NCBI GenBank assembly: GCA_958295645.1
Contig: OY282361.1
Location: 2,818,501-2,882,500 of the forward strand
Source of the DNA: Longimicrobiales bacterium
Lineage (GTDB): Bacteria > Gemmatimonadota > Gemmatimonadetes > Longimicrobiales > Gaopeijiaceae
Reading direction: 5' to 3'
DNA length: 64,000 nucleotides
The notes beneath the pieces are model-generated. The model had not been told where the DNA came from. It worked only from the letters and a program-made list of their open reading frames with translations, and did no database searches. The translations under genes and the position numbers were made by a program. Shown here piece by piece: positions 27,180 through 34,217 of the stretch; within the stretch, counting starts at the first letter, position 1, and the number at the start of each line of letters is the position of its first letter.

Positions 27180-29660
27180 ATGACCAACGTATTCGCTGGA
27201 TTGACGGCCGTGGCCGCGCTTGCGGGCGCCCCGGCGACCCCAGGCGGCAAGGCGCTTCCCGACGACCCGCCCTCGCCCGCGCTCGGCTTGGCGCAGGAGG
27301 CGCAGCTCCAGGCCTCCAGCGCCAGACCCCGCCCGCATCCCGCCCGTCCCGACCCCGTGGTCTACGACGGCGCCGCCGGCCAGCTCGCGGTTCCCAGCCC
27401 TTGGGTCGCCGAGGCAGGCATCGACGTCGACGGCGCGCTGGACGAAGCCGCCTGGGCGAGCGCCCCGCTGCTGACCGGCTTCACCCAGTTCGATCCCGTC
27501 GAAGGCGTGCCCGCCACGCAGCGCACCGAAGCGAGAATCCTTGTCACGGACGACGCCATCTACTTCGGCGTCAAAGCGTACGACGACGTGCCCGGCGGCG
27601 TCCGGGCCACGCTGGGCGACCGCGACTCCTTCGCGCGCTCGGACGACTACGTGCGCATCGTCCTCGACACCTTCGACGACCGCAGGCGCGGCTACGTCGT
27701 CATGGCCAACCCCTACGGCGTCCAGCAGGACGGGCTCTGGGTGGTCGGCGGGGGCGGACGGCGCCGCTTCGGTCCCCCCATCGACTGGAATCCCGACTTC
27801 GTCTGGGACTCGGACGGACGGATGTTCGACGGGGGCTACTCGGTGGAGATCCGCCTGCCGTTCAAGAGCATTCGCTTCCCCGACGCGCCCATGCAGGACT
27901 GGGGACTGCAGATCGAGCGCCGGATTGCGCGAAACGGCTATTCCGAGTCGTGGGCGCCCGTGACCGCCAACACGTCCAACCGGATGGAGCAGTTCGGCAG
28001 CCTTACGGGTCTCGAGGACTTGGACCCGGGCCTCTTTCTGGAGATCAACCCGGTGCAGACGGTCACCAGCCAAGGGACGTTCGACGAAGACGCCGGCAAG
28101 CTCCAAAGGGGACCCGTCGTCGGCGACTTCGGCTTGAACGTGGCCTACGGCATCACCTCCAACCTCACGCTCGACGGCACGTTCAATCCCGACTTCTCCC
28201 AAGTCGAGGCGGATGCGGGCCAGATCGCCGTGAACGAACGCTTCGCCCTGTTTCTGCGGGAGAAGCGGCCGTTCTTCCTGGAGGGGGCCGAAGTCTTCAG
28301 CCTGCCGCAGCAGCTCGTCTACACGCGGTCGATCGTGAACCCGGTGGGCGGCGCCAAGGTGACGGGCAAGATCGGCGGCTACACGGTGGGCTACATGGGC
28401 GCGGTCGACGAAGTGGGCGACCCCGCGGGCGGAGACGGCGAGGCCCATCCGGTCGTCAACATCGTGCGCCTGCGCAGAGATGTCGGGAGCAACTCGAACG
28501 CGGGCTTGGTCTACACCGACCGGACCTACGGGACGGACCGCTACAATCGCGTGGCGGGGATGGACGGGCGGTTCGAGCTCACGCCGCGCTACACGCTGAC
28601 GGTGCTGGCGGCGGCCAGCCGTACGGCCGAAGGCGGCTCGGAAGTCACGGGCGGCTCGCTTGCCTCCGCGAGGCTGGAGCGCTCGGGGCGCACCTTCGAG
28701 TTCAACGCGGCAATCGAGGACGCGGGGGACGACTTCGTCGCGGGCAGCGGCTTCATCCGCCGGACGGGCGTCACGCAGGTCAGTTCGCGCCTCAACTACA
28801 ACTTCCGGGGACGACCCGGCGACGCGGTGGAACGCTGGGGGCCCAGCTTGGAGGTCGAAGGGCTCTGGGACCACGACGACTTCTGGCGCGGCCGGGGCGT
28901 GAAGGAGGCGCGGATTCAGCTCGGCGGCAGCGCTTCCTTTCGGGGCAACATCACGATGTGGGCCAACTACAGCCGCCGCTACTTCGAGTTCGGCCAGGGC
29001 GAGTACGACGGGCTCGTGTTCGCCGGGCCGGATGGTTCGGCTCTGCCGTTCTTCCCCGACCAATCCCGCTTCCAAGGACTTCAGTCGGGCACGTTCTTCA
29101 TGTGGATCAACGCGTTCGACCGAGCGCGGGGAAACATCCGCGCGACATGGTCGGAGACGCCGCTCTTCGAGTTCGTCACGGACACGCCGGCCGACGTGGC
29201 CCACTCCTGGTCCGGCGAGGTCAGCTTGAACGTCTTTCCGACTACGCGGATGCGCGGCGAGATCGGCGTTCGGCACACCACCTTGCGCCGCAAGCGGGAC
29301 GGATCGCTCTACTCGCGGGCCACGATCCCGCGCCTGCGCGTCCAGTACCAGTTCACGCGGGCGCTGTTCCTGCGCACCATCGCGGAGTACGGCAGCCAGC
29401 GCAGGAATCCGCTGCTGACGCCGGACGGAGGCGCTCGCTTGTCGTACTGCTCCAGCGCCGAAGACTGCAGCCAACTCGGCGGATCGGAGTCCTACGACTT
29501 CTCGGTGGAGGCGTTGCTGGGATACGAGCCGACCCCCGGAACCGTCTTCTTCCTCGGCTACACTCGGTTGATGGAAGACGTGGCGGCGTTTCGCTTTCGC
29601 GATGTGCGGCCGGAGGCGGATGGCGTGTTCGTGAAGATGTCGTATAGGTTCAGGAGATAG
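27180..29660 (+). CDS. DUF5916 barrel with N-terminal CBM9-like domain
   Basis: This 826-residue secreted protein has a signal peptide, then a carbohydrate-binding family-9-like domain at about 75-255. That domain opens AGIDVDGALDEAAWASAPLL and contains FDDRRRGYVVMANPYGVQQD. The remaining 550 residues form a DUF5916 outer-membrane barrel with the typical segment ERFALFLREKRPFFLEGAEVF. It ends in the strand GVFVKMSYRFRR. Such proteins are common in Gemmatimonadota and Bacteroidota, with binding or hydrolytic roles suspected but not shown. It is divergent from the zinc-ribbon/PorV pair, with about 115 bases between starts. Confidence 0.85.
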   Translation: MTNVFAGLTAVAALAGAPATPGGKALPDDPPSPALGLAQEAQLQASSARPRPHPARPDPVVYDGAAGQLAVPSPWVAEAGIDVDGALDEAAWASAPLLTGFTQFDPVEGVPATQRTEARILVTDDAIYFGVKAYDDVPGGVRATLGDRDSFARSDDYVRIVLDTFDDRRRGYVVMANPYGVQQDGLWVVGGGGRRRFGPPIDWNPDFVWDSDGRMFDGGYSVEIRLPFKSIRFPDAPMQDWGLQIERRIARNGYSESWAPVTANTSNRMEQFGSLTGLEDLDPGLFLEINPVQTVTSQGTFDEDAGKLQRGPVVGDFGLNVAYGITSNLTLDGTFNPDFSQVEADAGQIAVNERFALFLREKRPFFLEGAEVFSLPQQLVYTRSIVNPVGGAKVTGKIGGYTVGYMGAVDEVGDPAGGDGEAHPVVNIVRLRRDVGSNSNAGLVYTDRTYGTDRYNRVAGMDGRFELTPRYTLTVLAAASRTAEGGSEVTGGSLASARLERSGRTFEFNAAIEDAGDDFVAGSGFIRRTGVTQVSSRLNYNFRGRPGDAVERWGPSLEVEGLWDHDDFWRGRGVKEARIQLGGSASFRGNITMWANYSRRYFEFGQGEYDGLVFAGPDGSALPFFPDQSRFQGLQSGTFFMWINAFDRARGNIRATWSETPLFEFVTDTPADVAHSWSGEVSLNVFPTTRMRGEIGVRHTTLRRKRDGSLYSRATIPRLRVQYQFTRALFLRTIAEYGSQRRNPLLTPDGGARLSYCSSAEDCSQLGGSESYDFSVEALLGYEPTPGTVFFLGYTRLMEDVAAFRFRDVRPEADGVFVKMSYRFRR

Positions 29661-30167: not shown

Positions 30168-31925
30168 TCAGTTGCGTGGTCGGCGGGCTGGCGGCCCCTG
30201 TCCAGGACGTGCTCCCTTGCGGGGTCCTCCCTTTCCGCCACCGCGTCCGTCGCCGTCGCGTCCTCTCCCGCCTTCGCGCGGCGCGCGGCGGTCCCCGCGT
30301 CCTCTGGCGTCCCCGCGTCCTCTCGCGTCCCCATGCCCTCTCGCGTCTCCGCGTCCTCTCGCGTCCCCACGCCTTGGCGGTCCCGGGCCGGGGCGATCCT
30401 GTCGGCGTCCCTTTGGGGGTCCCGAGTCGCGCGGGCGGTCGTAGTCCACGCGCAGACTGCGTTCGCCCAGGGTGGTGCCGTTCAGGGCCTTGATCACCTT
30501 CTTGGCCTCCTCCGCCGCCACCTCGACGACGGAGTGGGACTCGCGAACCTCGATCTTGCCGATCCGGTTTCCCGCGATGTCCGCTTGGCTGGCGATGGCG
30601 CCGACGAGTTCGCGCGGACCGACCGAGTCCCGCTCTCCGGCCGACACGAACAGCCTGATCCAAGCCACGGGCGCCGCCGCGTCGGCCTGCGTCTCTCTCT
30701 CGGCGGCCTTCTCGCGGTCCAGTAGGGCCAGCGCTCCGGCGGCCAGCTCGGCAGCGGTGAACCTGTCCAGCAAAGACTCGACCAGAAGCGAATAGGGCAG
30801 CGCTTCCGGAGCGGCGGCGGCCGCGGCGACCCGCTCGGCCAACTCGTCGAGCTGCTGCGACACGCGAGGCGGCCGTTCGGGGCGCGCCTGCTTCACCGCG
30901 AATCCCGCCTGTGCCGCCGCCGACTGCAGATGGCGCAGCTCCCTGGGCGCGGCCACCGTCCAGGCGGCTCCGCCCGCCCCGTGCCGGGCAGCCAGGACCT
31001 CCGCCCCCGCGGGCACGGCGGACGAAAACGTCGCCACTTCGCCGGCGCCGGGAAGATCGTCGAGGACGGCCCGGGCCGCCTTCTCCTCCCCTGGGCAGAG
31101 CCACACGGGCGCGCTCGCGTCGCCGGGCGGGCCGGAGGCGTATCCGTGCAGGTCCAGAAAGTCCCCCAGATCGGCCGCTTGATCGGCCGAGGCGCAATAG
31201 ACGAGGATGTGGCGAACCGCCGCGGCGTCCTGGAGCAGCTCGGCCACCACGCCCAATGCGGCCTCGGCCAAGTCGCCGCCGGAGACGACGCAGTTCAGGG
31301 CACGCGCGGGGCGGGGGGCGTCCTCTTCGGAAGGCGGCGGCACGGTCGCCGCGCGGTGCGTGAACCGGCGGGCCAGCGACTGGAGGGGCGCACCGAACGG
31401 GAGGCCGAAGAAGATGCGCTGGCAGTCCTTGGAGAGGCTGGACAACAGCGTCTCCAGGTGGTCGCCCGGCGCGGTGGCGACCACGCCGTCGCCGTCGTGG
31501 AAGACCACCGCGCGCACCGCCTCGGTGGCCACGGTGCCGTCGAAGAGGGCCCGGACGCGGCTCGCCGGCACGAAGAGGAAGTCGGCCCGTTCCGGAAGGT
31601 TCCACGTCTGGGCCAGGGCGGCGGCGCGGAGTCCGGCAGCTTGGCAGAGACCGCCCAGAGAGCGCGCCAGAGAGGTCGCCTGCTCGCTGCCGGTGCAGAG
31701 GATCAAGCAGACGGGCGATCCGGCCCCGCCCTCCAGCCGGTCGACGAGCGGAGCGCCGTAGGCCACCAGCGCGCCCCCGCCGGGGCCGACCCGGCCGAGC
31801 AGGTGCCGGCCCCGCGCAATGACCGGGACGGCCGCCTCCTGGAACGGCGTCGGCGTCTCCACGCCCTCGGCCGCGAGAGCCGCCACCGTCTCCGGGCCGA
31901 GCCGGAGTTCGTCGAACGACGTCAC
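30168..31925 (-). CDS. Degenerate DEAD-box protein with DbpA RNA-binding domain and RGD-rich tail
   Basis: This 585-residue protein has the architecture of a DEAD-box RNA helicase of the DbpA/CsdA type but has lost its catalytic motifs. The Q motif survives (FDELRLG and then PTPFQEAAVPVIARGRHLLG). The Walker A position (about 44-52) reads GRVGPGGGAL instead of a GKT loop. The DEAD position (about 142-147) reads FHDGDG, and SAT is FGLPF. A second RecA-like domain covers about 205-345. The DbpA RNA-binding domain is intact at about 421-497 (WIRLFVSAGERDSVGPRELV to RVDY). The tail is a repeated Arg-Gly-Asp/Ala low-complexity RNA-binding region. It should bind RNA without ATP-driven unwinding. 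Confidence 0.8.
   Translation of the reverse strand: MTSFDELRLGPETVAALAAEGVETPTPFQEAAVPVIARGRHLLGRVGPGGGALVAYGAPLVDRLEGGAGSPVCLILCTGSEQATSLARSLGGLCQAAGLRAAALAQTWNLPERADFLFVPASRVRALFDGTVATEAVRAVVFHDGDGVVATAPGDHLETLLSSLSKDCQRIFFGLPFGAPLQSLARRFTHRAATVPPPSEEDAPRPARALNCVVSGGDLAEAALGVVAELLQDAAAVRHILVYCASADQAADLGDFLDLHGYASGPPGDASAPVWLCPGEEKAARAVLDDLPGAGEVATFSSAVPAGAEVLAARHGAGGAAWTVAAPRELRHLQSAAAQAGFAVKQARPERPPRVSQQLDELAERVAAAAAAPEALPYSLLVESLLDRFTAAELAAGALALLDREKAAERETQADAAAPVAWIRLFVSAGERDSVGPRELVGAIASQADIAGNRIGKIEVRESHSVVEVAAEEAKKVIKALNGTTLGERSLRVDYDRPRDSGPPKGRRQDRPGPGPPRRGDARGRGDARGHGDARGRGDARGRGDRRAPREGGRGRDGDGRGGGKGGPRKGARPGQGPPARRPRN
30297..30368. repeat. Four 18-base tandem repeats in the helicase-like tail
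   Basis: The unit GCGTCCTCTCGCGTCCCC (plus strand) occurs four times in a row with a few substitutions, at 30297, 30315, 30333 and 30351. In frame on the minus strand each unit encodes GDARGR. Copy number could change by slippage without breaking the frame, altering tail length. Confidence 0.75.
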
Positions 31926-31941: not shown

Positions 31942-32244
31942 TCAACTGGGGTCTCCGGCCCCGGGTCCGCCGACGTCTCCCGGTTCGTACGGAAGCAGGT
32001 TGAGGAAGCGCTGAATCTCGTAGTCCATGCGCGAGGTGCGGAGCCGATCCGTCTGGGCGACGACTTCCGTGTACGGACCGTGCCGGTGGGCCGTCAGGAC
32101 GACGGTGCCCTCGTCGCCGGCGTAGGTGGCCCCGTGCGCGGACGTGCGCGACCTCTTCAGTCCGATCAGCGCGGGGATGTGCTGCTCCGCGTGCTCCAGC
32201 ACCTCGCTCGGGCCGAGAGCCGTCTTCCGTTCGTATCCCGCCAT
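31942..32244 (-). CDS. Small conserved-looking protein of unknown function
   Basis: This 100-residue protein has no domain I recognise. It alternates beta-like segments (GATYAGDEGTVVLTAHRH, TEVVAQTDRL) with a helix at the start, and ends proline/glycine-rich. It has no signal peptide, so it should be cytoplasmic. ATG 32244 has a GAGGAGA site about ten bases upstream. It lies 16 bases upstream of the degenerate helicase gene on the same strand, so the two are likely co-transcribed. Confidence 0.6.
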   Translation of the reverse strand: MAGYERKTALGPSEVLEHAEQHIPALIGLKRSRTSAHGATYAGDEGTVVLTAHRHGPYTEVVAQTDRLRTSRMDYEIQRFLNLLPYEPGDVGGPGAGDPS

Positions 32245-32329: not shown

Positions 32330-32920
32330 CTAACCAGGTCGTCCCGCCGCCGCGTCTCGAATCCATCGCACAATTTCGCCCGGCGACCGAAAACCTTCCA
32401 GACGTCCCCCGTCCGCAACGAACGCCGGAACAGCCTCGACGCCCCGCTCGCCGGCCTCCGCCCGGTTGCTGGCCACGGCGTCCGTGAAGGCGTCCACGTC
32501 GAGCGCGGCCTTGGCTTCGGTGGCGTCCATCCCCTCGGCGCGGGCGATCGCGACCAACTGATCGATGCGGCCGATGTCCTTTCCTTCCACGAAGTGAGCT
32601 CGAAAGATCGCCCGTATCACGCGGGCATGGCAGTTCCTGGCCCGGGCCAGCTCCGTCATCTCGTGAGCCTTGCGCGTCCAAGGCGTCAGCAGCGGCGCGC
32701 GCATGGGAATCTCGAGCGCCTCCGCGTAGGCGGACATGCGGCTCTGATGCCGGCGCCAAGCTTCGTCCTCCGCTGCCAGGGGCGGCTCCGGGGGCGGACG
32801 AATCTCGAAGCCGCGCCAGTCCAGCGCCGCCTCCAGCCCTTCGCCGCCGACGACGCAGCTGGCCAAGTAGGAGCCCGGATCGACAAAGTCGTAGAAGATG
32901 GTCGGCCCGGTCGTGAACAT
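32330..32920 (-). CDS. DsbA-family thioredoxin-fold oxidoreductase / isomerase-like protein
   Basis: This 196-residue protein matches the DsbA/FrnE/2-hydroxychromene-2-carboxylate isomerase family. It begins TIFYDFVDPGSYLAS, then has a long helical insertion, and ends GVEAVPAFVADGGRLEGFRS with the cis-proline loop. The usual CPxC active site is replaced by DPGS, as in glutathione-dependent isomerase-type members. Disulfide exchange through a CxxC is therefore not expected. ATG 32920 or a TTG two codons earlier may be the start. It is cytoplasmic and divergent from the aminotransferase gene, with 109 bases between. Confidence 0.8.
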   Translation of the reverse strand: MFTTGPTIFYDFVDPGSYLASCVVGGEGLEAALDWRGFEIRPPPEPPLAAEDEAWRRHQSRMSAYAEALEIPMRAPLLTPWTRKAHEMTELARARNCHARVIRAIFRAHFVEGKDIGRIDQLVAIARAEGMDATEAKAALDVDAFTDAVASNRAEAGERGVEAVPAFVADGGRLEGFRSPGEIVRWIRDAAAGRPG

Positions 32921-33029
32921 GCCCAAAGTTGCGATTGCGGCCCGGACGGGGCAACGTCACGTCTTGTTCGGCGCGGCGCACCGGCCGCGACCAACCGCAC
33001 AGGAACCCAGCAAAGGCACAAGACGACCC

Positions 33030-34217
33030 ATGAACTACTCGCAGAACATCGCGAAGCTGCAACCCTCGGCGACGATCGCCGTAAGCACGCTGGCCAAGAA
33101 GCTCGCCGCCGAAGGGCGCGACATCATCAACCTCAGCGCCGGGGAGCCCGACTTCGACACGCCCGCGTGGATTTCCGAAGCCGCCACCGAAGGGATCGCG
33201 AAGGGCCGCACCCGGTACACCGCCTCTTCCGGGATGCCGGAACTGCGGCGTCTGGCCGCCGAGTACATGACCGAAGGAACTGCGCACGAGGCCGATCCGG
33301 CCCGCGTCGTGGTCTCCGCCGGCGCCAAGCAGTCCCTCTTCAACGCCTGCTTCTGCTTGTTCGGGCCGGGGGACGAAGTGCTGATCGGATCGCCGTACTG
33401 GACCTCGTACCCCGAGATGGTGACGCTGGCGCGAGCCGCACCGACCCCCGTCGCGGGCAACGAGAGCCGCCAGTTCCTGCTCACGCCCGCCGACCTGGAG
33501 CGCGCAGCGTCGCCTGCAGCCCGCGGACTCGTCATCTCGACGCCGTCCAACCCCACGGGCGCAGTCTACTCCACCGCGCAGCTGGCCGACCTGGCCGCCT
33601 GGGCCAAGGAAAGAGGCGTCACGCTGATCTGCGACGAGATCTACCGGGAGATCTACTTCGGCCCCGGCGCTCGCGCTCCCGGCGTGCTCGACCTCGACCC
33701 GGAGGCCGTCGGACACGTGGTGGCGGTCAACGGCATGTCGAAGGCCTTTGCGATGACCGGATGGCGCGTGGGCTTCTCGTACACGACGATCGAGCTCGCC
33801 ATGAAGATGGGCGCGCTTCAGAGTCACGTGTCGCTCAATGCGGCGACGCCTTCGCAGGTGGCTTCGGTGGAGGGACTTCGGCGGGCCCAGCCGGACGGCG
33901 GCGACCGGAAGAGGATGCTGGAGGCGTTTCGGAGGCGGCGGGACTTGGTGTCGCGGCTGTTCGACGAGTTGCTGCCCGGCTTCCCCTACGTCAAGCCGGA
34001 CGGGGCGTTCTACCTGTACTTCCGGGTGGACGCGGCCTTCGACGACGAGGTGAAGACGGCCGGTGCCTTGTGTTCGCGACTGCTCGAAGAGGCCGGCGTG
34101 GCCATCGTCCCGGGAGAGGCGTTCGGCGACGCGCGCTACGCCAGAATGAGCACGGCCTCCTCGGACGAGGACGTCGAGGCGGGCGTGCGGCGCATGGCGG
34201 CGACGCTGGCGAGCTGA
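33030..34217 (+). CDS. Class I/II pyridoxal-phosphate aminotransferase (aspartate-type)
   Basis: This 395-residue enzyme is a subgroup I-beta aspartate/prephenate-type aminotransferase. It has the N-terminal INLSAGEPDFDTP and the PLP contacts STPSNPTGAVYS and CDEIYREIYFG. The Schiff-base lysine is in NGMSKAFAMTGWRVGF. The conserved late DGAFYLYF stretch binds substrate carboxylate. It should transfer amino groups between aspartate or aromatic amino acids and 2-oxoglutarate. ATG 33030 is placed so that the protein opens in the family manner, NYSQNIAKLQPSATIAVS. Confidence 0.92.
   Translation: MNYSQNIAKLQPSATIAVSTLAKKLAAEGRDIINLSAGEPDFDTPAWISEAATEGIAKGRTRYTASSGMPELRRLAAEYMTEGTAHEADPARVVVSAGAKQSLFNACFCLFGPGDEVLIGSPYWTSYPEMVTLARAAPTPVAGNESRQFLLTPADLERAASPAARGLVISTPSNPTGAVYSTAQLADLAAWAKERGVTLICDEIYREIYFGPGARAPGVLDLDPEAVGHVVAVNGMSKAFAMTGWRVGFSYTTIELAMKMGALQSHVSLNAATPSQVASVEGLRRAQPDGGDRKRMLEAFRRRRDLVSRLFDELLPGFPYVKPDGAFYLYFRVDAAFDDEVKTAGALCSRLLEEAGVAIVPGEAFGDARYARMSTASSDEDVEAGVRRMAATLAS

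Follow-up and report, generated by a model that had tools for sequence, protein, structure and literature searches.

A DeaD/CsdA-like protein lacking the DEAD-box motor motifs is conserved in one class of Gemmatimonadota and is probably an RNA-binding pseudohelicase

The 64,000-nucleotide stretch of Longimicrobiales DNA analysed here (the window) encodes a protein that is homologous to DeaD/CsdA-like RNA helicases and has their domain architecture, and has lost their catalytic motifs. Its relatives share these losses, are conserved under purifying selection and are separate from the true helicase copies of the class. We consider it probable (about 0.6) that one copy of a duplicated DeaD/CsdA-like helicase lost its motor motifs and survived as a pseudohelicase that binds RNA independently of ATP. 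The features of the locus are listed in Table 1.

Table 1. Features of the pseudohelicase locus (window coordinates). The window's own family is called f1; f2 and f3 belong to the same order, and f4 to f7 are other families of the class.
Feature	Position	Strand	Remarks
DUF5916/CBM9-like protein gene	27180..29660	+	convergent with the pseudohelicase gene; adjoins many f1 loci
Pseudohelicase gene	30168..31925	-	585 aa, GTG start
Arg/Gly/Asp-rich low-complexity tail	30171..30437	-	varies among orthologues
DbpA RNA-binding domain (PF03880)	30447..30656	-	residues 424-493, E=1.1e-20
DeaD/CshA-type dimerisation domain	30705..30878	-	about residues 350-407; PF25399 in family, CshA alignment
Second RecA-like domain, strongly eroded	30891..31313	-	motifs V and VI gone
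Motif III site, GLP in place of SAT	31398..31406	-	
Degenerate motif II, HDGD	31488..31499	-	VVDGA or VVDQA in most orthologues
Degenerate P-loop, VGPGGGAL	31767..31790	-	K and T gone; G49 and G51 invariant in f1
Q motif PTPFQ, kept	31839..31853	-	P25 and Q29 invariant in f1
Conserved hypothetical gene, about 100 aa, directly upstream	31942..32244	-	also upstream in most f1 and several f2/f3 loci
DsbA-like thioredoxin gene, upstream	32330..32926	-	PF01323
Aspartate-aminotransferase-type gene, divergent	32898..34217	+	also a neighbour of many of the most eroded orthologues

Results

Catalytic motifs

Among the motifs expected of an active DEAD-box helicase, the Q motif is present. The Walker A site reads GRVGPGGGAL, as against xxATGTGKT in the true paralogues, and its lysine is absent from all f1 orthologues. 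Motif II is HDGD, SAT is lost, the motif V consensus is absent, and ARHGAG stands in place of the motif VI sequence HRIGRTGRAG, with a five-residue deletion, so that HRxGRxGR is missing as well. The preliminary description, made from the sequence alone, had read the Walker A, motif II, SAT and Q-motif sites in the same way, and motif comparison across orthologues agrees with its view that this is probably a dead DEAD-box derivative keeping a DbpA-type domain. The HDGD form of motif II is restricted to ten sequences, namely the window protein and L010, L060, L068, L076, L083, L088, L099, L100 and L111. A sequencing error or frameshift was ruled out as the cause of the changes by the open frame and by the same changes in L010, an orthologue which comes from a Gemmatimonadetes MAG and is 61% identical to the window protein.

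Domain architecture

Matches of the window protein to the DbpA, CshA and DeaD models of NCBIfam were weak and far under the cut-off. In the Pfam scan, PF00270 scored 23.2, below its gathering score of 26, and PF00271 gave no match; the assignment of the second RecA-like domain therefore rests on a profile-profile alignment and on a match to CshA. When the family was aligned with true DeaD-type helicases of the same class (hhalign), 519 columns covering both RecA-like domains, the dimerisation domain and the RNA-binding domain were matched with E=3e-63. CshA (5ivl) matched positions 1-407 of the 40-member family profile, dimerisation domain included (E=4e-48), while E. coli DbpA (7pli) matched it over the first RecA-like domain and the RNA-binding domain. 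The PF03880 domain typical of DbpA/YxiN is found in the window protein over profile positions 1-70 of 72 and in 40/40 family members, and PF25399, the DeaD dimerisation domain, in 25/40. The domain order is that of DeaD/CsdA (two RecA-like domains, dimerisation domain, DbpA-type domain), followed by an Arg-rich tail. On the strength of the hhalign, CshA and PF25399 results, the protein is thus of the DeaD/CsdA type and not of the DbpA/YxiN type.

Two RecA-like domains and a full DbpA domain had been recognised in the preliminary description, and both are confirmed by these comparisons. The dimerisation domain was missing from its list, and the RGD-rich tail that it reported exists as a low-complexity, poorly conserved segment. 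An AlphaFold model of the window protein (two-sequence input) was poor (pLDDT 48); a Foldseek search with it ranked DbpA first at a TM of just 0.24 and was given no weight.

Distribution and selection

A DbpA-domain protein was found in 58 of the 59 good-quality f1 genomes. The motif sites could be read in 96 f1 sequences, comprising 81 pseudohelicases and 15 true helicases, and the Walker lysine, DEAD and SAT were absent from all 81 pseudohelicases. A pseudohelicase copy was present in 81/84 f1 genomes read and a true copy (at least 380 aa) in 15/84, counts that depend on which matches were fetched. Open frames were seen in about 150 pseudohelicase loci. A few pseudohelicases contain GKT- or DEAD-like strings, which fall outside the motif sites. 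No DbpA domain was detected in six genomes listed under another class of the phylum. One genome contains, besides two other copies, a third DbpA-domain fragment (L113, G045:C23:12168-12338), which is broken and interrupted by a TAG.

The preliminary description had proposed a search for orthologues sharing the altered motifs, and had taken close relatives with intact GKT and DEAD as the sign of a lone decaying copy. In our search, no orthologue carried DEAD or SAT where these motifs belong, and GKT was found only in f3, without DEAD.

Between the closest pseudohelicase pairs, dN/dS was 0.10-0.32, and both RecA-like domains, the dimerisation domain and the RNA-binding domain were all constrained, the RNA-binding domain most tightly and the tail most loosely. 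For comparison, dN/dS was 0.08-0.21 for the adjoining aminotransferase gene and 0.19-0.52 for dsbA. Several core residues are conserved in the family and differ from those of true helicases (W108, A250/A251, S301, H315 and H332). At the level of sequence, this pattern is that of an altered core under maintenance, not of free decay. Helicase homology, loss of the catalytic motifs across orthologues and purifying selection, the sequence-level marks of a pseudohelicase, are thus all found. Nearly all the related Gemmatimonadota genomes that were examined keep a motorless copy in which the RNA-binding part is intact, so the protein is maintained for some function and the gene is not dying.

Graded erosion of the core

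In f3, a G-x-GKT Walker A was found in 13 of 14 sequences (the 14th ends at a contig end), together with a VDGAS-like sequence in place of DEAD and the loss of motif VI. The loci with an intact G-x-GKT that lack DEAD, SAT and motif VI are L212, L214-L224 and L226, and their products could possibly bind ATP without hydrolysing it. In f2, the Walker lysine was lost in all eight sequences. The 49 sequences from the four families f4-f7 have lost both the Q motif and the P-loop, and the DbpA domain was still significant in those that were scanned. With the RNA-binding domain removed, f4-f7 cores matched the pseudohelicase cores with E values from 1e-28 to 1e-37 (from 1e-37 to 2e-32 for the f2/f3 cores) and true helicases less well, whereas reversed and unrelated control profiles gave about 0.2 or worse.

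In a full-length tree of f1-f3 and the true copies, pseudohelicases and true helicases formed separate clades with 100/100 support. In the tree of the RNA-binding domain, built on 87 columns and with many forks open, a branch with an SH-aLRT of 91 has the pseudohelicase lineage as one of its two sides; one row of this tree, L129, carries the label pseudo_f5 but is a true copy that has been truncated.

Genomic context

Flanked by the DsbA-like and pseudohelicase genes, the small hypothetical gene lies 16 bases from the latter on the same strand; most f1 and several f2/f3 genomes have this arrangement. Its product had no significant Pfam match, and its dN/dS in close pairs was 0.06-0.56. Neither this gene nor the DsbA-like gene was found beside the f4/f5 orthologues, so they cannot explain a function shared by the family, and an operon-based function was rejected. 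The aminotransferase gene is a neighbour at most f4 and many f5 loci; the true-helicase loci are without it. At L166, L156 and other f4/f5 loci, genes resembling those for dephospho-CoA kinase and glycine cleavage were seen by eye downstream of the eroded orthologues. The adjoining DsbA-like, hypothetical and aminotransferase genes gave no pointer to the ribosome and no clear functional hint.

Discussion

Taken together, these observations suggest that the window protein likely acts as a scaffold or chaperone that binds RNA without ATP and is probably dimeric. The ATP-independent chaperone or anchor suggested in the preliminary description is a reasonable proposal. An ancestral DeaD/CsdA-like helicase with core, dimerisation and DbpA-type domains may have been duplicated within the class, one duplicate dropping DEAD and SAT first and the P-loop later. 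The eroded copy, presumably devoid of ATPase activity, would have been retained as an ATP-independent RNA-binding protein. A reservation is that motif loss is not strict proof that ATP binding has gone; f3 members retain GSGKT. It would dimerise through the DeaD-type domain, so that two DbpA domains and two Arg-rich tails could grip structured RNA bivalently, while the RecA shell, itself inert, would serve as a rigid spacer or a surface for docking. Such a dimer would stabilise or present RNA, plausibly rRNA, without unwinding it. Unwinding can come from elsewhere, because the strongest DEAD-box match in the window genome, an RhlE-like protein (L002), has intact motifs. We suggest, more tentatively, a wider reading in which a near-universal RNA-assembly factor of the class arose as a helicase was turned stepwise into an ATP-free dimeric clamp, the active paralogue being more dispensable. 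The surviving intermediates would be the forms with GKT and no DEAD, with the Q motif and no lysine, and with neither.

The protein could instead be a specific 50S assembly factor, bound to hairpin 92 of 23S rRNA and serving as a placeholder in the peptidyl transferase centre while the centre is immature, which we regard as rather doubtful. DbpA and YxiN domains are tied to this hairpin (PMC7973409), and the window protein carries the full domain. YxiN reads the hairpin loop partly through Lys427 and also by main-chain contacts of I436-G437-I439 (PMC3695512); in our alignment, the stretch used for backbone recognition of guanine is kept as I-G-K-I, but Lys427 is replaced by Ser. The latter is a weak point against, since E. 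coli DbpA itself has Gly at the aligned position. Hera, whose RNA-binding domain is similar, fails to recognise this loop (PMC3695512), so that the premise of the preliminary description, that DbpA domains target hairpin 92, was too general, and the DeaD/Hera layout does not imply this specificity. Ribosomal gene context is also missing at the locus. Ribosomal RNA is a plausible target.

A nucleotide-binding switch, in which ATP or another ligand held by the Q motif and the GxG loop gates RNA binding without hydrolysis, is improbable. In its favour, f3 members retain GSGKT without DEAD, and f1 shows no variation in the Q motif or in the two glycines of the P-loop. However, f1 and f2 no longer have the lysine and f4-f7 have lost the entire site, so the function common to these families cannot be nucleotide binding. 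It is very improbable that the protein is a regulatory partner which heterodimerises with an active DeaD-type helicase: pseudohelicases and true copies have the dimerisation domain in common and some genomes hold both, but most f1 genomes, the window's included, have no active DbpA-domain paralogue, and the best DEAD-box match in the window genome is of RhlE type. A functionless decaying duplicate is next to impossible, for although the core is eroded, its second RecA domain worst, a lone decaying copy is ruled out by shared motif losses, by near-universal presence in the family with open frames at so many loci, and by purifying selection.

Comparison with known systems

As a probable RNA-binding pseudohelicase, the window protein can be set beside both active helicases and inactive ones. 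It has the domain order, dimerisation domain, basic tail and Q motif of DeaD/CsdA, CshA and Hera, and shares an RRM-like RNA-binding domain with DeaD and Hera, CshA being without one. It differs from all of them in the loss of motifs I, II, III, V and VI and in a second RecA domain that is below Pfam detection. With DbpA/YxiN it has the C-terminal PF03880 domain and the first RecA domain in common; these are active helicases, however, and the layout with dimerisation domain and basic tail is that of DeaD/CsdA/Hera. We know of no dimerisation domain in DbpA/YxiN. A warning for annotation is that family members named as helicases because of a DbpA or DEAD domain probably do not work as such.

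Pseudohelicases as such are already known. Utp25/Def, a DEAD-box pseudohelicase that acts in eukaryotic ribosome assembly (PMC9539457), resembles the window protein in being conserved and DEAD-box-derived, with vestigial motifs and two RecA-like domains; it has other extensions and no DbpA domain, and orthology is not claimed. PriA of Deinococcus radiodurans (PMC4504706) is a bacterial pseudohelicase which, as presumed for the window protein, no longer has ATPase activity but still binds nucleic acid, and its motifs are poorly conserved across its phylum, but it belongs to a DNA replication-restart family and is not a DEAD-box protein. A full-text search of the open-licence literature for pseudohelicases gave one title with a bacterial case, PriA of D. 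radiodurans, and no bacterial DEAD-box protein. The same literature had no paper on a DbpA helicase of Gemmatimonadota, and the papers that name both Gemmatimonas and DEAD-box do so in passing and deal with other subjects, although the family may be mentioned elsewhere. The class-wide bacterial DEAD-box pseudohelicase family is therefore apparently undescribed so far. Bacterial pseudohelicases are barely documented, and here one bacterial class offers a natural series from cores that retain the ATP site to fully eroded ones, with the RNA-binding domain intact, which makes it testable which functions of a helicase need ATP and which need the scaffold alone.
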